Assembly: GCA_016188575.1 (NCBI GenBank)
Contig: JACPHN010000027.1
Span: 1 to 11,267 of the forward strand
DNA length: 11,267 nucleotides
Direction of reading: 5' to 3'
From: Candidatus Schekmanbacteria bacterium
GTDB lineage: Bacteria; CSSED10-310; JACPHN01
The position numbers and the translations under genes are program-made. Shown here in pieces: positions 1,209-10,787 of this stretch (position 1 is its first letter; the number at the start of each line of letters is the position of its first letter). A model generated the notes under the pieces. That model was not told the origin of the DNA, did no database searches, and saw nothing but the letters and a program-made list of their open reading frames with translations.

Positions 1209-2255
1209 TCACGGCGCGTCGTCCCGGGAAAACAGCGTGATCCCGCCGCCGGCCGCGAGCGACGCGGCTTTCAGGGCCGCCACTTCCTCATCAAGCGCGG
1301 CGCGGCCTGGCCAGGCATCGGCGCCGCGCGGCACCAGCGGTTCCTCGGTGAGGAATTCGGACGTGTCGATGCAGCCGAGGCTCGGGGTGTCGGAGCAGTC
1401 GCGCACCATCGCCGCGATCTCCACCGGGTCGGTGGTGCCCCAGTAGTTGAATTTGGCGGAGGTCTCGACCGGATAGGAGCCGGTAACGCCGTGAATCACG
1501 GGGACGCCGTTGCCGACGAAGATGTTGCGACCCCGGCTGCCGAGCGTGCCCCCGCCCAGATCTCCTGGGCCGCTGTAGCGCATCGGGTGGCCGCCGGCCA
1601 GCGCCCCGCTAGTGTTGTTGCGAAACTCGTTGTCCTCGACCAGACCGAGACCGCCGCCATCTACCCAGTAGTCGATCGCGAGCCCGCGCGTGTCGTTGAT
1701 GCGGTTGGCTACCACTTCGTTGATGCCGAAGTAGGCGGTAACGGCGGCTATGCCGCAGTCGAAGATGTCGTTGTAGGCGAGACGACTCACGTCCTGGCCT
1801 CGTTTGATTACACCTCCCCCGTTGTCACATTGAAAAACGTTCCCCTCTAGCACCCACGAGATGTAGGTGCTGACGCCCGCACCATGGAAGCGACAACCGT
1901 AGGCGCTGATAGAAACGAATCCCGTGATCCCGCCGTTCTCGATACCCAGGTTCTTGGCAGTAAACCGGGATCCAGCCCAGATTCCCCCTACGATCACGGC
2001 GCCAGTGTTCGATTCACCCGCGATCGTGAGATCCGACAGCGTTTCGGCATTGATCTCTTCGATGTATCGTCCTTTCGGGATATAGATCACGTCGCCCTTC
2101 TGGGCGTCGTCGACCGCGGCTTGAATGGTTGCATAATCGCCCTGCCCATTCAGGGTAATCCCCCGACCCGCGGTGTCGTCGCAAGTCCAGGAAACGGTCA
2201 TGCCCGCGGCGGTGAGCGCTGCCACTGCGAAGCGCGCCTTGCATCTACCAGCCAT
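1209..2255 (-). CDS. exported right-handed beta-helix (pectate-lyase-like) protein, copy A
   Basis: This 348-aa protein starts at ATG 2255, whose first 11 nt overlap the end of the upstream GH99-like gene (TAG at 2247-2245), so translation is probably coupled. Residues 1-24 form a signal peptide: a basic MAGRCKAR start, a hydrophobic FAVAALTAAGMTVSW core, then a Cys. SWTC is not a good lipobox, so lipidation is doubtful. From about residue 40, DYATIQAAVDDAQKGDVIYI is the usual entry strand of pectin-lyase-fold proteins. It is followed by irregular rungs rich in N, G, V and I (for example ENGGITGFVSI, VVANRINDTRG, LVEDNEFRNNTSGAL) and the rung-type motif KFNYWGTTDP near residue 263. The C-terminal 60 residues are more helical. 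No catalytic triad can be assigned; it could be an enzyme, a binding protein or a surface structure. Copy B (6293-7339) has the same length. Confidence 0.85.
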   Translation of the reverse strand: MAGRCKARFAVAALTAAGMTVSWTCDDTAGRGITLNGQGDYATIQAAVDDAQKGDVIYIPKGRYIEEINAETLSDLTIAGESNTGAVIVGGIWAGSRFTAKNLGIENGGITGFVSISAYGCRFHGAGVSTYISWVLEGNVFQCDNGGGVIKRGQDVSRLAYNDIFDCGIAAVTAYFGINEVVANRINDTRGLAIDYWVDGGGLGLVEDNEFRNNTSGALAGGHPMRYSGPGDLGGGTLGSRGRNIFVGNGVPVIHGVTGSYPVETSAKFNYWGTTDPVEIAAMVRDCSDTPSLGCIDTSEFLTEEPLVPRGADAWPGRAALDEEVAALKAASLAAGGGITLFSRDDAP

Positions 2256-5200
2256 GGGCCTTCACCTCCGGCAGATGCGCGGTACGCACGTGGTCCAGGT
2301 ACATCTCGGCCACCTCGGGTGTCGGCGCGGCCCCCGGATCGGGGTCGGCGACACCGCGCCAGAAGAAGTCGTAGATGTCGGCGGCGGGGGTGATCGCTTC
2401 CGCGTCCTCGTAGGTGCAACTTCCGGCCGGATAGGGCGCGGGCGCGGCAAATGGTGGCAGGGTAGCCGGCTCGATGTTGGTGCCCTCGTACCACTCGTTG
2501 AATTCGGTGATCCCCACGTAGTCGGGTTCATACTTCAAGGTCAGCGCGAAGAAGTCGTCGAAGAAGGCGAATTCGTCACCGCAGGGTTTCACGTAGCGGG
2601 CATCGTCGGGAGCCTCCGTGCCCCAGGAAGGGTCGTCCCACGGTGGCGCGGCCGAGGCGTCGTAGTGACGCCCGATGCGCTCGATTATCGTGCGGTCGTG
2701 GCTTGCCGCCCGGGTCTTGTCGAAGCCGGCGGCGTAGGTCGGAATCCACAGCAGCGGCGATGGGGCGTACTGATCGCGAAAGTTGTGAAAAGCCGCGTCA
2801 GCTTCCTGATAGGGGCTGGTCTCGGGCCGGCCCCGATTCGGCCCGACATGCAACGGCGCGTAGTGATTCAATCCCGCGAACCCCCCGTCGCGCACGTATT
2901 CCGGCTGCACCGCCTGCGCCGTCACATTCGCCCGGAACCGCCCCCGCAAGGTCGCCAGGTGTGGGCACCACGCCGGGTTCGCCGGGTCGTCGGCGGCCAG
3001 CGTGCACTCGCAGGTACCGCCGGCGCCGGTCGGGCAAGCGGGGATCTGGGGCACGACCGGCTCCAGCCCGAACCGCTGGGTCGCGAAGGTCACGAAGAGC
3101 GGCATCCCCGTGCGGCTGATGTCGTAGAAGAAGCCGTCCTGATGCCCGTAGGTGTAGAGCACCCCCTTTTGCTCCCGGACCACGTGGCACGGCGACTTGT
3201 AGGGCGGGTCCACGGTCGCGTCTACGAGAAACGCGGTGGTAATCCCTTTTTCCGCCAGCAGCGCGATCAGCGTCTCGATGTCGGTGTCGAAACCGGGCGA
3301 CGGCCCGGAGCCCTGGATCGGGTCCGGTTCCGCCTGCTGCACCGGCCGGCAGGCGCCGAAGTCGCCGATTGCCCCGGAGATATCGCCGCCGGTGACGGGA
3401 TCGGCAGGGTCCGGCCCCTTGCCGACCCAGGAGTAGATCACCGTCCCGGCGCCGGACTGCGCGATCCAGTCGGCGTGCCGTTTCAACAACGCGGTGCGCT
3501 GTTCCGTGCTCACCCCGAATTCGGCGCTCCGCATCGAGCTGACGTAATGGCCGACGTCCGGGTCGGTCAGCACCCACGGATAGAAGGCGGCGCCGAGGTT
3601 ACGGGGATAATCGCGGATGACCGGCGGGTCGGCCTGGAGATTGTCCGCCCCCCAGGTGTGCGGGTAGTACCAGCCGTGGTAGTGGAGCATGAGCCGCCGC
3701 AGGTTGGTCTCGACCCGCGGGTCGTGCTCGGTCGCCAGGGAGCGCAGCACCAGCCGGGTCGTTCTGGTGCCGCCGTCGAGCGGCGCGAAGCGTGCCACCA
3801 CCCGGTCGATCGACTGCCAGGCCGGGTCGGTGGCGACGTGGCGGCGGCTCTCTTCCGCCGGCACCCCCGGCTCACCCTCGCGCCGCAAGAGGAATTCGCG
3901 CTTGGGCAGCACCAGCAGCTTGCGGCCGCGCAGCCAGCCGGGCACCGTCGCCGACAGCAGCACCCGCTGGGGATTGGGCTCGCCGCCCGCGACTGCGACC
4001 GGGTCGCGGTCGACGAGCTCGACCGTGACCAGCGCCGACTCCGGCGTGGGCTCCTGGGCGTCGAGGCTTTCGAGGTCCAGCAGCACCGCGTTGCCGGCGG
4101 ACAGGTCGAGAGGCGGGTCCGGTGCCAGGCGGATGGCGGGGGAAAGGTCGTCGTCCGCGAAGTCGATGGCGACCTGCAAGCCGTCGGGCTCGCCCTGCTC
4201 GCCGGTGTTGGCGGTCAGGGTGACCAGCGCCGAGGTCGCGTCCTCGGGTAGCCAGAGGTCGAGGTCCCCGAAATCAGAGATCAGCGCACCGTGCGCGCCG
4301 CCAGGGATCGGGCCGTCGACGCGGGCGGAAACCGGGTCGCCGGGGGTGCAGGTGCCGTCCGCGTGGCAGGCGGAGAGGACGTAGGTGACCACGGGGTCGA
4401 GCGGGTCGAGCTCCAAGGATTCGATGGCGCTGTCGACGAAGGTGGTGGTGAGGCGGTTAGCGCTGGCGAACACCGTGGCGTCCACGGCGAAGGCGTCGAC
4501 GCGCGCCGCCGGGGCACCCGCTCGCGCGGCCAGAGCCGCCGACGCCGCCAGCGCCGACAACAACAACACCCGGCAGGGGCGCGATTCGTCGCGCCCCCGT
4601 TGGCGTTGACAAGATAATCGCGCCGAAATTGAGCCGTCGCGCTGACCGGGCGCGATGAATCGCGCCCCCCCGGAAATGGCGCGCCGCCGCCCTGCGCGAC
4701 CCGCGGCGATCCCCGCCCCCATGGCCGCGATCGCCGCCACCAGCCACCCGCTCCCGAGCGCGGGTGCCGGGGTGCCGAGCGTTCGCACCAGCGCGTAGCG
4801 GCTAACCCGGCGGTCGGCGCTCGGGGTCCAGGCCATGCCGACAGCCCCCTGATGCCCGAAGGCGATGCGCAGCTCGGGCTGGGGCGGCGCCGGCGCGGGC
4901 GGCGAGGTGGGCGTCGGCGTCGGGGTGGCGGGGATCTCGTGCCTGGGGAAGCGAATCTCGTCGACGAAGGCGATCCCCTCGGCAACCTCCCTCCCTCCCC
5001 CTGCACGCGGTAGGAGGAATTGCAGGAGCGCGCGCGCCGTGTCTGCCTCCTCACCTCCTCCCGCACGCGGGCGGAGGCCAGGAAGGGGGGCGTCCCCGCG
5101 GGTGTAGGTGAAAGTCAGCGTGCGCCTGCCTCGCGCCACCGTGACCACCTTCTCGTCCCAGTCCTCGGTTCCCTCGACGCTGCCGCGCGCGATGCCGTCG

Positions 5201-5598
5201 ATCAGGAAGCTGAAAGCGTCGCCGGCCGGCATGTCGGTCTTGGAGAAGAAGCGGATCCGCTCGTTTTCCAGCATGTCGAGCATCAGCGCGACCGCCGCCG
5301 TCTCGCCCGGCTTCAGGTTGGCCGACCGCAGCGACAGCGCCCCGTGATGGCTCTCCGCGCCGGTGCCGAACCAGGCGCCGAGCGGCGAGGTTTGCCACGG
5401 GTACTCGGACTCATCGAGGCCGCCGGACTCGAAGCTCTCGGCTGGGGTGGGCGTCGGCGTCGGGGTTACCGTCGGCGTGCGCGTCACCGTGGGTGTGCCG
5501 GTCACGGTCGGAGTGCGCGTGACTGTTGGGGTACGGGTGGCGGTGGGCGTCGCCGGTGCATCAGGCGTGCCCGTGGCGGTCGCGGTGGCCGCATTCAC
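2245..5598 (-). CDS. secreted multidomain protein with jelly-roll module and GH99-like domain, copy A (5' end out of frame at a G tract)
   Basis: The open frame gives 1117 residues from a GTG at 5598. The likely true start is ATG 5693, cut off by the 12-G tract (see that entry), which would add 32 residues. Order, numbered from 5598: Thr-Pro linker (15-53) with four [R/G]TPTVT repeats; a jelly-roll/MAM-like module from FESGGLDESEYPW (56) to about 220, interrupted by a palindrome-encoded insert (about 168-205); a second Thr-Pro linker and an FN3-like scrap; a TM-plus-Arg segment (GSGWLVAAIAAMGAG, about 280-305); a palindrome-encoded link; a second signal-like segment (344-370); a beta-rich Cys-containing region; and from about 600 a GH99-like barrel. 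Evidence for GH99 is AAFYPW, the DVGHYVSS.R......H..W region ending in VIYSWVG, and EFNEWYEGTNIEP. E1035 and E1038 match the glutamates three apart that are catalytic in GH99 endo-alpha-mannan enzymes. Activity and substrate are inferred. Confidence 0.8.
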   Translation of the reverse strand: MNAATATATGTPDAPATPTATRTPTVTRTPTVTGTPTVTRTPTVTPTPTPTPAESFESGGLDESEYPWQTSPLGAWFGTGAESHHGALSLRSANLKPGETAAVALMLDMLENERIRFFSKTDMPAGDAFSFLIDGIARGSVEGTEDWDEKVVTVARGRRTLTFTYTRGDAPLPGLRPRAGGGEEADTARALLQFLLPRAGGGREVAEGIAFVDEIRFPRHEIPATPTPTPTSPPAPAPPQPELRIAFGHQGAVGMAWTPSADRRVSRYALVRTLGTPAPALGSGWLVAAIAAMGAGIAAGRAGRRRAISGGARFIAPGQRDGSISARLSCQRQRGRDESRPCRVLLLSALAASAALAARAGAPAARVDAFAVDATVFASANRLTTTFVDSAIESLELDPLDPVVTYVLSACHADGTCTPGDPVSARVDGPIPGGAHGALISDFGDLDLWLPEDATSALVTLTANTGEQGEPDGLQVAIDFADDDLSPAIRLAPDPPLDLSAGNAVLLDLESLDAQEPTPESALVTVELVDRDPVAVAGGEPNPQRVLLSATVPGWLRGRKLLVLPKREFLLRREGEPGVPAEESRRHVATDPAWQSIDRVVARFAPLDGGTRTTRLVLRSLATEHDPRVETNLRRLMLHYHGWYYPHTWGADNLQADPPVIRDYPRNLGAAFYPWVLTDPDVGHYVSSMRSAEFGVSTEQRTALLKRHADWIAQSGAGTVIYSWVGKGPDPADPVTGGDISGAIGDFGACRPVQQAEPDPIQGSGPSPGFDTDIETLIALLAEKGITTAFLVDATVDPPYKSPCHVVREQKGVLYTYGHQDGFFYDISRTGMPLFVTFATQRFGLEPVVPQIPACPTGAGGTCECTLAADDPANPAWCPHLATLRGRFRANVTAQAVQPEYVRDGGFAGLNHYAPLHVGPNRGRPETSPYQEADAAFHNFRDQYAPSPLLWIPTYAAGFDKTRAASHDRTIIERIGRHYDASAAPPWDDPSWGTEAPDDARYVKPCGDEFAFFDDFFALTLKYEPDYVGITEFNEWYEGTNIEPATLPPFAAPAPYPAGSCTYEDAEAITPAADIYDFFWRGVADPDPGAAPTPEVAEMYLDHVRTAHLPEVKAHGW
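4558..4566. repeat. CAA x3 microsatellite (TTG x3 on coding strand)
   Basis: Three CAA units here correspond to four in copy B (9649-9660). They encode the Leu run that starts the internal signal-like segment, so slippage changes its length by one Leu without breaking the frame. Confidence 0.8.
4577..4596. repeat. REP-like palindrome, GCGCGATTCGTCGCGC type
   Basis: GGGCGCGATTCGTCGCGCCC forms an 8-bp stem around a 4-nt centre. It is one of a pair in inverted arrangement with 4648-4667, and both lie in frame within the large gene. The type resembles dispersed extragenic palindromes, usually found between genes, which supports reading this stretch as a former intergenic spacer. Confidence 0.8.
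4648..4667. repeat. REP-like palindrome, second of the pair in copy A
   Basis: GGGCGCGATGAATCGCGCCC has a perfect 9-bp stem around GA. It faces the palindrome at 4577-4596 in inverted orientation, about 50 bp away. Translated on the minus strand, the pair and its spacer give about 35 Arg/Ser/Gly-rich residues with no resemblance to a folded domain. Confidence 0.8.
4994..5077. repeat. pair of 24-nt palindromes inserted in frame in copy A only
   Basis: Two imperfect palindromes (4994-5017 and 5054-5077) share 20 of 24 bases, including the core GCACGCGG, and begin exactly 60 bp apart. The second pairs at 10 of 12 positions. Each has CCTCC/GGAGG ends, a pattern seen in dispersed extragenic palindromes of GC-rich genomes. 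Together with flanking bases they make about 96 bp that copy B lacks (around 10080-10095), a multiple of three that keeps the frame open. They encode about 32 residues rich in Gly, Ala, Arg and Leu inside the jelly-roll module. Confidence 0.85.
5464..5535 (-). repeat. 18-bp coding tandem repeat (TPTVT hexapeptide x4)
   Basis: Four 18-bp units encode RTPTVT, RTPTVT, GTPTVT and RTPTVT in the linker between the signal peptide and the jelly-roll module. The copy B linker is diverged (TPTASPTRTVTVTPTP, then SATRAPSATRTPTAT) and carries a frameshift. Such linkers are typical of exported multidomain proteins. Confidence 0.85.
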
Positions 5599-5693
5599 CG
5601 GCGCCGGCGACCCGGCCAGCGCCAGCAGCAGAAACGCTACCCCCCCCCCCCGGAGAAACGCCGTGCCACACCATCAAACCACTTTGCTCGCAT
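5599..5693 (-). other. start and signal-peptide coding segment of the copy A large gene
   Basis: ATG at 5693-5691 is preceded by GGAGG (5705-5701) with a 7-nt spacer, the same arrangement as at 10748 in copy B. It reads MRAKWFDGVARRFS and then enters the G tract. After the tract, the frame used by the long ORF reads VAFLLLALAGSPAPVNA, a hydrophobic core with a signal-peptidase-like NA end. The two halves together make a normal Sec-type signal peptide with a basic n-region. As sequenced, with 12 G, the ATG frame stops at TAG directly after the tract (18 codons). Confidence 0.75.
5640..5651 (-). repeat. 12-nt G tract on coding strand (poly-C on plus), candidate phase switch
   Basis: Twelve uninterrupted C on the plus strand are 12 G in the coding direction, placed between the n-region and the hydrophobic core of the signal peptide. 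From ATG 5693 the codons are TCC GGG GGG GGG GGG TAG. One more G, or two fewer, restores GTA GCG TTT and the full 1149-residue protein. The equivalent tract in copy B has 11 G. Confidence 0.85.
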
Positions 5694-5732
5694 CGCCATC
5701 CCTCCATGGTTTCAGCACACATCACACCTTCA

Positions 5733-6292: not shown

Positions 6293-7339
6293 TCACGGCG
6301 CGTCGTCCCGGGAAAACAGCGTGATGCCGCCGCCGGCCGCGAGCGATGCGGCTTTCAGGGCCGCCACCTCCGCGTCGAGCGCGGCGCGGCCCGGCCAGGC
6401 ATCGGCGCCACGCGGCACCAGCGGTTCCTCGGCGAGGAATTCGGAGGTGTCGATGCAGCCGAGGCTGGCGGTGTCGGAGCAGTCGCGCACCATCGCCGCG
6501 ATCTCCGCGGGGTCGGTAGTGCCCCAGTAGTTGAATTTGGCGAAGGTGGTTTCCGGATAGGAGCCGGTTTCGCCATGGATGACCGGCACGCCGTTTCCCA
6601 CGAAGATGTTGCGCCCGCGACTCCCCAGCCATCCTCCACCGAGATCTCCTGGGCCGCTGTAGCGCATCGGGTGGCCGCCGGCCAGCGCCCCGCTGGTGTT
6701 GTTGCGAAACTCGTTGTCCTCGACCAGACCCAGACCGCCGCCATCCACCCAGTAGTCGATCGCGAGCCCGCGCGTGTCGTTAATCCGGTTGGCTACCACC
6801 TCACTGATGCCGAAGTAGGCGGTGACGGCAGTGTTTCCGCAGTCCAGGATGTCGTTGTAGGCGAGACGGCTGAAGCTCTGGCCTCGCTTGGTCGCTGCTC
6901 CGCCGCCATTGCATTGAAAGACGTTTCCCTCGAGCACCCATGAAATGTACGTGCTTATCCCTGCACGGCGAAAACGACAACCGTAAGCACTGATAGAAAC
7001 GAATCCCGTGATGCCGCCGTTCTCGATACCCAGGTTCTTGGCAGTAAACCGGGATCCAGCCCAGATTCCCCCTACGATCACGGCGCCAGTGTTCGATTCA
7101 CCCACGATTGTGAGATCCGACAGCGTTTCCGCATTGATCTCTTCGCTGTATCGTCCTTTCGGGATATAGATCACGTCGCCCTTCTGGGCGTCGTTGACTG
7201 CGGCTTGAATGGTTGCATAGTCGCCCTGCCCATTCAGAGTGATCCCGCGACCCGCAGTGTCGTCGCAGGTCCAGGAAACCGTCATGCCCGCGGCGGTGAG
7301 AGCTGCCACTGCGAAGCGCGCCTTGCCTCTACCAGCCAT
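6293..7339 (-). CDS. exported right-handed beta-helix (pectate-lyase-like) protein, copy B
   Basis: This 348-aa paralogue of the protein at 1209-2255 has the same length and the same 11-nt overlap with the gene before it. I chose ATG 7339 because it aligns with the copy A start and begins a clean signal peptide (MAGRGKAR, then FAVAALTAAGMTVSW). An upstream in-frame start at 7615 exists, but it would only translate the end of the GH99-like gene in a wrong frame. The beta-helix entry (DYATIQAAVNDAQKGDVIYI), the rungs and KFNYWGTTDP are kept. Differences from copy A cluster in one rung region (NGGGAATKRGQSFS against DNGGGVIKRGQDVS), while neighbouring stretches are almost identical. The gene is intact although the upstream gene is broken, so it may still be translated from its own or re-initiating ribosomes. 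Biochemical role unknown. Confidence 0.85.
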   Translation of the reverse strand: MAGRGKARFAVAALTAAGMTVSWTCDDTAGRGITLNGQGDYATIQAAVNDAQKGDVIYIPKGRYSEEINAETLSDLTIVGESNTGAVIVGGIWAGSRFTAKNLGIENGGITGFVSISAYGCRFRRAGISTYISWVLEGNVFQCNGGGAATKRGQSFSRLAYNDILDCGNTAVTAYFGISEVVANRINDTRGLAIDYWVDGGGLGLVEDNEFRNNTSGALAGGHPMRYSGPGDLGGGWLGSRGRNIFVGNGVPVIHGETGSYPETTFAKFNYWGTTDPAEIAAMVRDCSDTASLGCIDTSEFLAEEPLVPRGADAWPGRAALDAEVAALKAASLAAGGGITLFSRDDAP

Positions 7340-8996
7340 ACGCCACCACCTCCGGCAGATGCGCGGTGCGCACGTGGTCAAGGTACATCTCGGCGACCTC
7401 GGGTGTCGATGCGGCCCCCGGATCCGGGTCGGCGACGCCGCGCCAGAAGAAGTCGTAGATGTCGGCCGCGGGGGTAATCGCTTCAGCATCCTCGTAGGTG
7501 CAACCCCCGGCCGGATAGGGCGCGGGCGCGGCAAATGGCGGCAGGGTACCAGGCTCGATGTTGGTGCCCTCGTACCACTCGTTGAATTCGGTGATCCCCA
7601 CGTAGTCGGGATCATACTTCAGGGTCAGCGCGAAGAAGTCGTCGAAGAAGGAGAATTCGTCGCCGCAGGGCCTCACGTAGCGGGCATCGTCGGGAGCGTT
7701 CGCGCCCCAGGATGGATCATTCCACGGTGGTGCTGCCGAGGCGTCGTAGTGGCGCCCAATGCGCTCGATTCTCGTGCGGTCGTGGCTCGCGGCCCGGGTC
7801 TTGTCGAAGCCAGCGGCGTAGGTCGGGATCCACAGTAACGGGGAGGGGGCGTATTGCTCGCGAAAATTGCGAAACGCCACATCGGCTTCTTCGAAGGGTC
7901 TGGTTTCGCGGCGGTCCCTGTTCGGCCCGACATGCAACGGCGCATAGTGATTGAGTCCCGCGAATCCCCCATCCCGCACGTATTCCGGCGGCGCCGCCTG
8001 CGCTGTCACATTCGCCCGGAAACGGCCCCGCAAGGTCGCCAGGTGTGGGCACCACGCCGGGTTCGCCGGGTCATCCGCAGCCAGGGTGCAATCACAGGTG
8101 CCGCCGGCGCCGGTCGGGCAAGCCGGAATCTCGGTGATCCCCCTCAGCCCGAACCGCTGGGTCGCGAAGGTCACGAACAGCGGCATCCCGGCGCGGCTGA
8201 TGTCGTAGAAGAAGCCGTCCTGATGCCCGTAGGTGTAGAGCACCCCCTTCTGCTCCCGGACCACGTGGCACGGTGACTTGTAGGGTTTGTCCACGGTCGC
8301 GTCCACGAGAAACGCGGTGGCGATCCCTTTTTCCGCCAGCAGCGCGATCAGCGTCTCGATATCGGTGTCGAAGCCGGGCGAGGGTCCGGAGCCCTGGATC
8401 GGGTCCGCTTCCGCCTCCTGCACCGGCCGGCAGGCGGCGAAATCGCCGATCGCCCCGGAGATCTCGCCGCCGGTGACCGGGTCGGCGGGGTCCGGCCCCT
8501 TGCCGACCCACGAGTAGATCACCGTCCCCGCCCCCGACTGCGCGATCCAGTCGGCGTGCCGTTGCAACAACGCGGTGCGCTGTTCCGCGCTCACCTCGAA
8601 TTCGGCGCTGCGCATCGAGCTGACGTAGTGGCCCACGCTCGGGTCGATCAGCACCCACGGGTAGAAGGCGGCGCCGAGGTTACGGGGATAATCGCGGATG
8701 ACGGGCGGGTCGACCTCGAGGTTGTCCGCCCCCCAGGTGTGCGGGTAATACCAGCCGTGGTAGTGCATCATCAGCCGGCGCACGTTGGTCTCGACCCGCG
8801 GGTCGTGCTCGGTCGCCAGGGTGCGCAGCAGCACCCGCACCGTCCCGGTGCCGCCGTCGACCGGCACGAAGCGCACGGCGACGCGGTCGATCGACTGCCA
8901 CGCCGGATCGGTGGCGACGTGGCGGCGGCTCTCTTCAGCCGGCACGCCCGGCTCACCCTCGCGCCGCAAGAGGAATTCGCGCTTCGGCAACACCAA
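7329..8996 (-). CDS. GH99-like domain, C-terminal part of the frameshifted large protein, copy B
   Basis: These 555 residues correspond to the C-terminal half of the copy A large protein (from VLPKREFLLRREGEPG onward) and contain the whole GH99-like barrel. Present are YPWVLIDPSVGHYVSS, VIYSWVGKG, DGFFYDISRAGMPLFVTF and EFNEWYEGTNIEP with both motif glutamates. It is separated from its N-terminal half by a 10-bp tandem duplication (9007-9026) that changes frame. The GTG at 8996 is simply the first start-like codon after the break; no ribosome-binding site or signal peptide precedes it, so an active exported product from this piece alone is unlikely. A difference from copy A lies in the loop FGLRGITEIPACP (copy A: FGLEPVVPQIPACP). 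Best read as part of a pseudogene, unless the duplication is an assembly error. Confidence 0.65.
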   Translation of the reverse strand: MVLPKREFLLRREGEPGVPAEESRRHVATDPAWQSIDRVAVRFVPVDGGTGTVRVLLRTLATEHDPRVETNVRRLMMHYHGWYYPHTWGADNLEVDPPVIRDYPRNLGAAFYPWVLIDPSVGHYVSSMRSAEFEVSAEQRTALLQRHADWIAQSGAGTVIYSWVGKGPDPADPVTGGEISGAIGDFAACRPVQEAEADPIQGSGPSPGFDTDIETLIALLAEKGIATAFLVDATVDKPYKSPCHVVREQKGVLYTYGHQDGFFYDISRAGMPLFVTFATQRFGLRGITEIPACPTGAGGTCDCTLAADDPANPAWCPHLATLRGRFRANVTAQAAPPEYVRDGGFAGLNHYAPLHVGPNRDRRETRPFEEADVAFRNFREQYAPSPLLWIPTYAAGFDKTRAASHDRTRIERIGRHYDASAAPPWNDPSWGANAPDDARYVRPCGDEFSFFDDFFALTLKYDPDYVGITEFNEWYEGTNIEPGTLPPFAAPAPYPAGGCTYEDAEAITPAADIYDFFWRGVADPDPGAASTPEVAEMYLDHVRTAHLPEVVAYGW

Positions 8997-10524
8997 CAGC
9001 TTGCGGCCGCGCAGCCCCGCGCAGCCAGCCGGGCACCGTCGCCGACAGCAGCACCCGCTGGGGATTGGGCTCGCCGCCCGCGACCGCCGCCGGGTCGCGG
9101 TCGACCAGCTCCACCGACACCAGCGCCGACTCCGGCGTGGGCTCCTGGGCGTCGAGGCTTTCGAGGTCCAGCAGCACCGCGTTGCCGGCTGACAGGTCGA
9201 GGGGTTGATCCGGCGCCAGGCGAATCGCCGGCGCGAGCTGGTCGTCCGCGAAATCGACGGCCACCTGCAGGCCGTCCGCCTGGCCCTGCTCGCCGGGGTT
9301 GGCGGACAGCGTGACCAGCGCCGAGCCGGTGTCCTCGGGCTGCCAGAGCGCGGGGTCGCTGAAATCCGAGATCAGCTCGCCGTGGGCGCCGCCGGGGACC
9401 GGACCGTCGACGCGGGCGGAAACCGGCACGCCGCGGGTGCAGGTGCCGTCCGGGTGGCAGGCGGAGAGGACGTAGGTGACCACCGGGTCGAGCGGGTCGA
9501 GGTCGAGCGATTCGATGGCGCCGTCGACAAAGGTGGTGGTGAGGCGGTTAGCGCTGGTGAACACCGTGGCGTCCACGGCGAAGGCGTCGACGCGCGCCGC
9601 CGGGGCACCCGCTCGCGCGGCCAGAGCCGCCGACGCCGCCAGCGCCGACAACAACAACAACACCCGGCAGGGGCGCGATTCGTCGCGCCCCTGTTGGCGT
9701 TGACAAGATAATCGCGCCGAAATTGACCCGTTGCGCTGACCGGGCGCGATGAATCGCGCCCCCCCGGAAATGGCGTGCCGCCGCCCTGCGCGCCCCGCCG
9801 CGATCCCCGCCCCCATGGCCGCGATCGCCGCCACCAGCCACCCGCTCCCGAGCGCGGGTGCCGGGGTGCCGAGCGTCCGCACCAGCGCGTAGCGGCTAAC
9901 CCGGCGGTCGGCGCTCGGGGTCCAGGCCATGCCGACAGCCCCCTGATGCGCGAAGGCGATGCGCAGCTCGGGCCGCGGCGGCGCCGGCGCCGGCGCCGCG
10001 GTCGGCGTTGGCGTCGCGGTCGCGGGAATCTCGTGCCGCGGAAAGCGGATCTCGTCCACGAAGGCGATCCCCTCCTCCGCGGCTTCCGTAGCCCCACGGG
10101 TGTAGGTGAACGCCAGCGTCCGCAGTCCTCGGGCCACCGTTACCACTTTCTCGTCCCAGTCCTCGATGCCCTCCACGCTGCCCCGGGAAATGCCGTCGAT
10201 CAGGAAGGCGAAGCGGTCGCCGGGGGGCATGTCGGTCTTGGCGAAGAAGCGGATCCGCTCGTTTTCCAGCATGTCGAGGGTCAGCGCGACCGCCGCGGTC
10301 TCCTCCGGTTTCAGATTGGCCGAACGCAGAGACAGCGTGCCGTGGTGGCTCTCGGCGGAGGTGCCGTACCAGGCGCCGAGCGGCGAGGTCTGCCACGGAT
10401 ACTCGGATTCGTCGAGGCCGCCGGACTCGAAGCTCTCGGCGGGGGTGGGCGTCGGCGTCGGGGTCACTGTGGGAGTGCGCGTCATTGTAGGTCGCCGTCG
10501 GCGTCCGCGTGGCGCTGGGAGCAC
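8953..10524 (-). CDS. N-terminal part of the frameshifted large protein, copy B (jelly-roll module, anchor-like segment, beta-rich region)
   Basis: The frame runs 523 codons. Residues before MTRTPTVT are out-of-frame reading of the Thr-Pro linker, so true homology starts near 10484. It carries the jelly-roll module (ESFESGGLDESEYPWQ onward) without the palindrome insert of copy A: YTRG is followed by ATEAAEEGIAFVDE. Then come the Thr/Pro linker, the FN3-like scrap (AVGMAWTPSADRRVSRYALVR), the TM-plus-Arg segment, the palindrome-encoded link, the signal-like Leu/Ala segment with one extra Leu, and the Cys-containing beta-rich region. After GWLRG the frame diverges (AARPQAVGVAEAR) because of the 10-bp duplication and stops at 8953. 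As sequenced it has no usable start with a signal peptide. Probably a piece of a broken gene. Confidence 0.6.
   Translation of the reverse strand: MLPAPRGRRRRPTMTRTPTVTPTPTPTPAESFESGGLDESEYPWQTSPLGAWYGTSAESHHGTLSLRSANLKPEETAAVALTLDMLENERIRFFAKTDMPPGDRFAFLIDGISRGSVEGIEDWDEKVVTVARGLRTLAFTYTRGATEAAEEGIAFVDEIRFPRHEIPATATPTPTAAPAPAPPRPELRIAFAHQGAVGMAWTPSADRRVSRYALVRTLGTPAPALGSGWLVAAIAAMGAGIAAGRAGRRHAISGGARFIAPGQRNGSISARLSCQRQQGRDESRPCRVLLLLSALAASAALAARAGAPAARVDAFAVDATVFTSANRLTTTFVDGAIESLDLDPLDPVVTYVLSACHPDGTCTRGVPVSARVDGPVPGGAHGELISDFSDPALWQPEDTGSALVTLSANPGEQGQADGLQVAVDFADDQLAPAIRLAPDQPLDLSAGNAVLLDLESLDAQEPTPESALVSVELVDRDPAAVAGGEPNPQRVLLSATVPGWLRGAARPQAVGVAEARIPLAARG
9007..9026. repeat. 10-bp exact tandem duplication that breaks the copy B frame
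   Basis: CCGCGCAGCC occurs twice in a row (9007-9016, 9017-9026), whereas copy A has it once (around 3925). Ten bases are not a multiple of three, so this alone separates the two halves of the copy B large gene. Confidence 0.9.
9649..9660. repeat. CAA x4 microsatellite (TTG x4 on coding strand)
   Basis: One unit longer than the copy A tract at 4558-4566. It adds one Leu to the internal signal-like segment. Confidence 0.8.
9671..9690. repeat. REP-like palindrome in copy B
   Basis: Same sequence, GGGCGCGATTCGTCGCGCCC, as 4577-4596 in copy A. It was therefore present before the duplication. Confidence 0.8.
9742..9761. repeat. REP-like palindrome, second of the pair in copy B
   Basis: Same sequence, GGGCGCGATGAATCGCGCCC, as 4648-4667, again inverted relative to its partner at 9671-9690. 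Confidence 0.8.
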
Positions 10525-10748
10525 GAGTGGCGCTCGGAGTGGGCGTCACGGTCACGGTGCGCGTGGGGCTGGCAGTAGGGGTAGCGGTGGGCGTCGCCGG
10601 CGCATCAGGCGTGCCCGTGGCGGTCGCGGTGGCAGCGAGCGCCGGCGCCGGCGACCCGGTCAGCGCCAGGAGCAGAAGCGCTACCCCCCCCCCCACACGC
10701 ACACCCCGAAAAACGCAGTGACACGCCGCTAAACCACTTTGCTCGCAT
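10525..10748 (-). pseudogene. 5' end of the copy B large gene: start, signal peptide and linker in broken frames
   Basis: ATG 10748 has GGAGG seven nt upstream and reads MRAKWFSGVSLRFSGCACG before the 11-G tract. The tract puts the following core (VALLLLALTGSPAPALAA) in another frame. A GTG at 10702 would be in frame with that core (MRVGGGVALLLLALTG), but it has no good ribosome-binding site. A second break near 10485, where TACA-like extra bases precede ATGACGCGC, shifts the Thr-Pro linker out of frame with the jelly-roll module. So at least one and probably two frame changes separate this start from 8953-10524. Confidence 0.6.
10684..10694 (-). repeat. 11-nt G tract on coding strand in copy B
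   Basis: Eleven C on the plus strand, at the same place in the signal peptide as the 12-nt tract of copy A. From ATG 10748 the codons before it end in TGT, so 10 or 13 G would be needed to reach GTA GCG CTT. At 11 G the frame reads GGT AGC and later meets TGA in the linker. Confidence 0.85.
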
Positions 10749-10787
10749 CGTCATGCCTCCAGGGTTTCCGTACCCATCGCACCTTCA

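Follow-up and report, generated by a model that had tools for sequence, protein, structure and literature searches.

Organization of the locus

The window, a stretch of 11,267 nucleotides, comprises the entire contig C144 of a 9,204,407-bp assembly (275 contigs, 93.8% complete) from an uncultured bacterium whose genome measures 9.2 Mb with 67% GC. Two paralogous copies, A and B, are located on the minus strand (Table 1). Each copy is followed by a gene for a right-handed beta-helix-like protein (positions 1209–2255 and 6293–7339), and the block of copy plus beta-helix-like gene forms a tandem duplication with a period of approximately 5.08 kb.

In copy A, the frame of the ATG at 5693–5691, which is accompanied by an additional in-frame ATG at 5699, reads MRAKWFDGVARRFSGGGG and then meets a TAG ending at 5637. 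The preliminary description of this DNA had reported a GGAGG, a spacing of 7 nt, this ATG, a run of 12 G, and an immediate TAG, and the layout was borne out on the minus strand. The secretory frame, VAFLLLALAGSPAPVNA..., opens at 5640 and remains open for 1131 codons up to the stop at 2245. The G12 tract sits between the ATG and this secretory frame, forming a length-sensitive repeat near the start. Poly-G codes for Gly in all three frames, and only a tract length of 1 mod 3 connects the ATG frame with the secretory frame. The secretory frame is one G away from the assembled register, and the earlier statement that adding one G or removing two would connect the start to it agrees with this rule.

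Table 1 Features of copies A and B in the window
Feature	Position	Strand	Remarks
Shine-Dalgarno GGAGG, copy A	5701..5705	-	7 nt before ATG 5693
Short ATG frame, copy A	5637..5693	-	charged signal-peptide start MRAKWFDGVARRFS, four Gly from the tract, TAG
G12 tract, proposed switch of copy A	5640..5651	-	out of frame as assembled
Gene 1 of copy A, secretory frame	4684..5640	-	hydrophobic core and cleavage region, Pro-Thr stalk, MAM/CBM-like domain, C-terminal membrane segment and RR
MAM/CBM-like beta-sandwich domain, copy A	4930..5436	-	fold taken from the copy B sequence
Linker with GGGCGCGAT..ATCGCGCCC palindromes, copy A	4570..4683	-	dN/dS 0.75 versus C271; gene 1/gene 2 boundary
Gene 2 of copy A	2245..4569	-	own signal-peptide-like start, then GH99-like protein
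GGAGG (10760–10756) and start codons (10754, 10748), copy B	10746..10760	-	
G11 tract, copy B	10684..10694	-	out of frame as assembled
MAM/CBM-like domain, copy B	10024..10434	-	frame broken upstream near 10,490
10-bp tandem duplication, copy B	9000..9030	-	frame break (near 9,010)
GH99-like part, copy B	7329..8996	-	

Coding content of copy A and copy B

Comparison of copy A with its paralogue C271 revealed dN/dS values of 0.31 before the linker, 0.75 within it, and 0.16 after it. The linker contains two of the palindromes given in Table 1 and is probably non-coding, with gene 1 ending near 4684 and a second signal-peptide-like start lying near 4569. The 1131-codon frame probably comprises two genes, encoding a MAM/CBM-like adhesin and a GH99-like protein in that order. 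Thus, the run of more than 1100 open codons described earlier stands as an open frame, while a single protein of more than 1100 residues is unsupported.

The domain of gene 1 begins with SFESGG. Elsewhere in the genome, 14 stretches can be aligned with the SFESG domains of the two copies, and these domains are homologous to the family that carries CT tracts (see below). No Pfam or NCBIfam family was found for gene 1, and a PDB sequence search with the SFESG domain profile gave no match. A structural model of the domain, built from the copy B sequence (pLDDT 88.4, pTM 0.83), matches MAM/CBM sandwiches; it resembles MAM domains (meprin, Z of approximately 14), gingipain adhesin domains (Z of 12.7), and carbohydrate-binding modules (Z of approximately 12). 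A modeled fold is not proof of function, but a natural guess for the gene 1 product is a cell-surface role in adhesion or sugar binding. Within its MAM/CBM-like domain, copy A has an in-frame insertion of approximately 96 nt (window positions 4985–5085) that is missing from copy B. The insertion consists of GC-rich palindromic repeats, and similar palindromes occur in intergenic positions beside other G tracts. The match of gene 2 to Pfam Glyco_hydro_99 reaches 28.6 bits over 36 aligned residues, below the curated cut-off of 33, and the predicted product is named only GH99-like.

Copy B had been described as having the same design with a different tract length. Its tract, G11, is indeed different and also out of frame, but the coding frame is broken elsewhere as well. 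At least two frame breaks occur besides the tract, one in the Pro-Thr repeat near 10,490 and one at the duplication near 9,010, so that the secretory frame is open for only 262 codons. An intact coding sequence under selection lies behind the tract of copy A but not behind that of copy B. Because of the further breaks, the tract alone cannot switch copy B, and the earlier suggestion that the two paralogues could be switched independently finds no support.

Distribution of poly-G tracts in the genome

Within the window, G8 words occur nine times versus a shuffle mean of 1.8, with 1 of 200 shuffles reaching nine. Across the genome, G10+ runs amount to 36 distinct tracts, and 12 distinct G11+ runs were found versus approximately 71 expected from base composition alone. 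A poly-G excess as such was accordingly rejected. Since G11+ runs are rarer than composition predicts, a G12 by itself is unsurprising at 67% GC. The telling feature of the poly-G tracts is their position and their recurrence at that position, not their number.

Three copies of the SFESG family carry MRKV[G10] signal peptides. In a teneurin-like RHS family, in which a TTR_TEN domain was found, poly-G tracts are located in the N-terminal region (G25, G17, G13, G11, three G10, and three G9), and a CSLREA-type family has G11 and G10 tracts in its N-terminal region. Many other G10+ tracts are intergenic, often within GCTTGC[G] palindromic repeats. Two further tracts, the G12 at C81:5338-5349 (L051) and the G10 at C140:21293-21302 (L064), are positioned just downstream of an exact TTGACA in distantly homologous genes for secreted proteins. 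Their -10 elements are weak or spaced by 20 nt, and a promoter scan of these two loci at standard settings returned no promoter. A role of these two tracts as promoter-spacer switches is possible, and they are treated here as leads only.

G tracts are also present in relatives of the same phylum. A scan of the named relatives with the copy A protein gave no match, and a scan with acetolactate synthase returned best hits from mixed phyla at 58–70% identity. In the 30 G-tract contexts read from phylum relatives, nothing comparable to the family of signal-peptide switches described here was seen. At two loci in phylum relatives, L396 and L387, a G tract lies close to a start. In one genome of the phylum, two contigs end 15–25 bases from runs of G13–G14 (G001:C40:19-28, L395; G001:C103:30-39, L407), as if assembly had halted at variable tracts.

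CT and GA tracts in surface-protein and methyltransferase genes

A TC-rich signal peptide in the paralogue C143 prompted a search for CT tracts. The genome contains 16 distinct (CT)7+ tracts versus 0.03 expected from composition, and seven other genomes of the phylum contain none. All 16 are located inside genes, and 14 of them lie in signal-peptide codons of the SFESG adhesin-like family, with signal peptides judged by eye from a charged start and a hydrophobic core. The repeats are found within the signal-peptide codons of a paralogous family of surface proteins. The starts include MPRRVMSLSL.., MTQRVASLSL.., and MSWRVPSLSL.., and (CT)n codes for Ser-Leu in every frame.

The remaining two of the 16 dinucleotide tracts occur in other genes. 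A (GA)8 tract at C194:39191-39206 (L257:1991-2006) interrupts the gene for a type III DNA methyltransferase; matches to the profile PDLC03634 cover positions 3–475 before the tract and 481–621 after it, in different frames. The gene is a candidate phase-variable methylation system (phasevarion). An (AG)13 tract at C86:9974-9999 (L250:1975-2000) comes immediately after the ATG of a gene for 232 aa, for which no Pfam match was obtained, and its assembled length keeps the gene in frame (RERERE...).

Tract length, frame, and selection among paralogues

Comparison of near-identical paralogues revealed differences in tract length of up to 18 nt, a variation seen between paralogues of one assembled genome and not within one locus. 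Between C237 and C74, 97 of 100 and 94 of 100 flanking positions are identical, with tracts of 25 versus 10 G. Between C86 and C14b, the identities are 93 of 100 and 94 of 96, with tracts of 30 versus 12 nt.

Genes that are always on would have all their tracts in frame, and random switching would leave one third in frame. Of the 30 resolved tracts, approximately 5 keep the frame (4 of 17 poly-G tracts of 9 or more; 1 of 13 CT tracts), namely those of three RHS copies, C213, and the C77a signal peptide; C151, C2, and C213 have long tracts that are in frame, and 12 of the 13 resolved CT tracts are out of frame. The out-of-frame share is somewhat above two thirds (P of approximately 0.04 if the copies were independent, which they are not), and the deficit of in-frame tracts relative to one third is mild.

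Intact frames of 1114, 883, at least 583, and 632 codons extend behind out-of-frame tracts. The gene 1 domains of copies A and B show a dN/dS of 0.22 at a dS of 0.31, and pairs within the CT-tract family mostly fall between 0.2 and 0.5. These values point to purifying selection behind out-of-frame tracts, on sequences that are not decaying freely. Besides the tract, extra breaks are found in copy B, C271, C239, C77a, C67, and C14b; as several family members carry other frameshifts, decay is also under way. At C153:1-250 (L273), the signal peptide of one subfamily is joined to the domain of another, which suggests that these adhesin-like paralogues undergo gene conversion or swap modules.

Proposed phase variation and competing explanations

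We consider it likely that the G12 tract of copy A acts as a contingency switch in signal-peptide codons, one of a genome-wide set governed by slipped-strand phase variation. The preliminary description had read copy A in this way, and the reading gains strong support from the G and CT tracts across the genome, the methyltransferase gene split by (GA)8, the variable tract lengths, and the purifying selection. Dozens of similar genes are interrupted at the same place by G or CT, and the surface proteins are therefore probably phase-switched. Alongside the frame anatomy, the recurrence, the length differences between paralogues, and the selection described above, we infer slippage, switching of export, and a mixed population. 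In this model, DNA polymerase slippage would add or remove G residues in the tract at high frequency. At about one in three lengths, the charged start MRAKWF.. would be fused to the hydrophobic core, and the PT-rich MAM/CBM-like protein of copy A would be exported and stay anchored through its C-terminal membrane segment. Other lengths would yield an early stop or a wrong-frame product. The population would be mixed in switch state, and the assembly would be a snapshot with most tracts out of frame.

A sequencing or assembly error, with the true tract in frame and the gene always on, had been named as the main alternative. G12 is a difficult homopolymer, and contigs of this 275-contig assembly often terminate inside these paralogues. 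The pure homopolymer version of this explanation is nevertheless weakened because the CT tracts, which are dinucleotide repeats, behave alike and are likewise out of frame in nearly all resolved cases; the splitting of the type III methyltransferase gene by (GA)8, and flanks that are conserved between paralogues on both sides of a tract whose length is not, also speak against error, which we regard as quite unlikely. The tract-bearing copies might instead be decaying pseudogenes or silent donor cassettes for the few intact copies (C258, C77b, C211, and C162). Such a role would fit the additional breaks listed above, the existence of intact copies with a short tract or with none, and the C153 chimera, which is as expected of gene conversion. 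Opposing it are the long intact frames behind out-of-frame tracts, with their low dN/dS values, and the long in-frame tracts of C151, C2, and C213, and decay does not predict dinucleotide tracts almost only in signal peptides; on balance, decay or a cassette role is unlikely.

If the tract caused slippage during transcription or frameshifting by the ribosome, expression would be constant and low with the DNA unchanged. Long G runs are slippery, and ribosomal frameshifting has been reported alongside slipped-strand mispairing in gonococcal opa-type genes (Belland 1989, as cited in PMC3960869). However, the needed shift differs among copies (+1 and +2 registers), tract length is not conserved, and CT tracts are not classical slip sites. 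Programmed frameshifting was rejected because the registers differ between copies, and slippage or frameshifting as a whole appears very unlikely. Translation could also begin downstream of the tract, for example at GTG 5598, from which 1117 codons are open, leaving the tract in an untranslated leader. This start would lie past the predicted cleavage region and give a protein without a signal peptide, whereas the upstream ATG has GGAGG at 7 nt and opens with charged residues, as is usual for signal peptides; in addition, the upstream start of the tract-free or short-tract copies C162, C258, and the Z copy C96 runs in frame into the hydrophobic core. We judge a downstream start to be highly improbable.

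The phase-variation interpretation thus holds for copy A, and far more widely than one window. As a tentative extension, the genome, which represents a poorly sampled phylum, may carry approximately 30 or more phase-variable genes, for MAM/CBM-like adhesins, teneurin-like RHS proteins, CSLREA-type proteins, and the type III methyltransferase, with exchangeable G and CT signal-peptide modules placed before one adhesin domain family and mostly silent at a given moment.

Relation to known systems and biological meaning

In Helicobacter pylori, CT repeats in the signal-peptide region of oipA (also babA and sabA) form a switch that operates by slipped-strand mispairing (PMC10564699). The CT-tract paralogues described here similarly carry (CT)n in the signal-peptide codons of adhesin genes, with the frame setting on or off. 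In contrast, copy A has a G tract instead of CT, the proteins are PT-rich and MAM/CBM-like whereas those of H. pylori are Hop porin-like, and the host genome is that of an uncultured organism with 9.2 Mb and 67% GC. The Neisseria opa gene family has CTCTT repeats in leader-peptide codons (PMC3960869) and is likewise a multi-copy family of surface proteins in which every copy carries a separate repeat within the signal-peptide codons; the repeat unit here is G or CT instead of CTCTT, and variation is inferred from paralogues and not from switching within a locus. MmyCI of Mycoplasma mycoides, a phase-variable type III methyltransferase, has AG repeats (PMC3498834), comparable to the AG/GA dinucleotide tract that breaks the mod gene frame on C194. 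The organisms differ, and for the C194 gene both methylation and switching are putative. In Neisseria porA and Treponema tp0126, poly-G lies between -35 and -10, according to the description given in PMC7864442. The tracts on C81 and C140, just past an exact TTGACA, resemble this arrangement but differ in their weak -10 element or 20-nt spacing. In meningococci, homopolymers of 8 or more are mostly variable in resequenced strains (PMC5084427). The hypervariable repeat gene of an uncultivated Gracilibacterium, known from the literature, is of a different kind from the tracts here, and our literature search found no paper linking phase variation with teneurin/Rhs proteins.

Repeat-based phase variation is known chiefly from host-adapted bacteria with small genomes, such as Neisseria, Helicobacter, Campylobacter, and Treponema. 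The mechanism is known; the novelty lies in how widely it would be used in the large, GC-rich genome of an uncultured organism without a close relative in collections. For annotation, there is a risk that dozens of switchable genes are called pseudogenes or started too late, with their signal peptides missed. A repertoire of this size in a 9.2-Mb genome suggests that phase variation is of use in other lifestyles as well, such as those that involve defense against phage or protists, or growth on surfaces that change.
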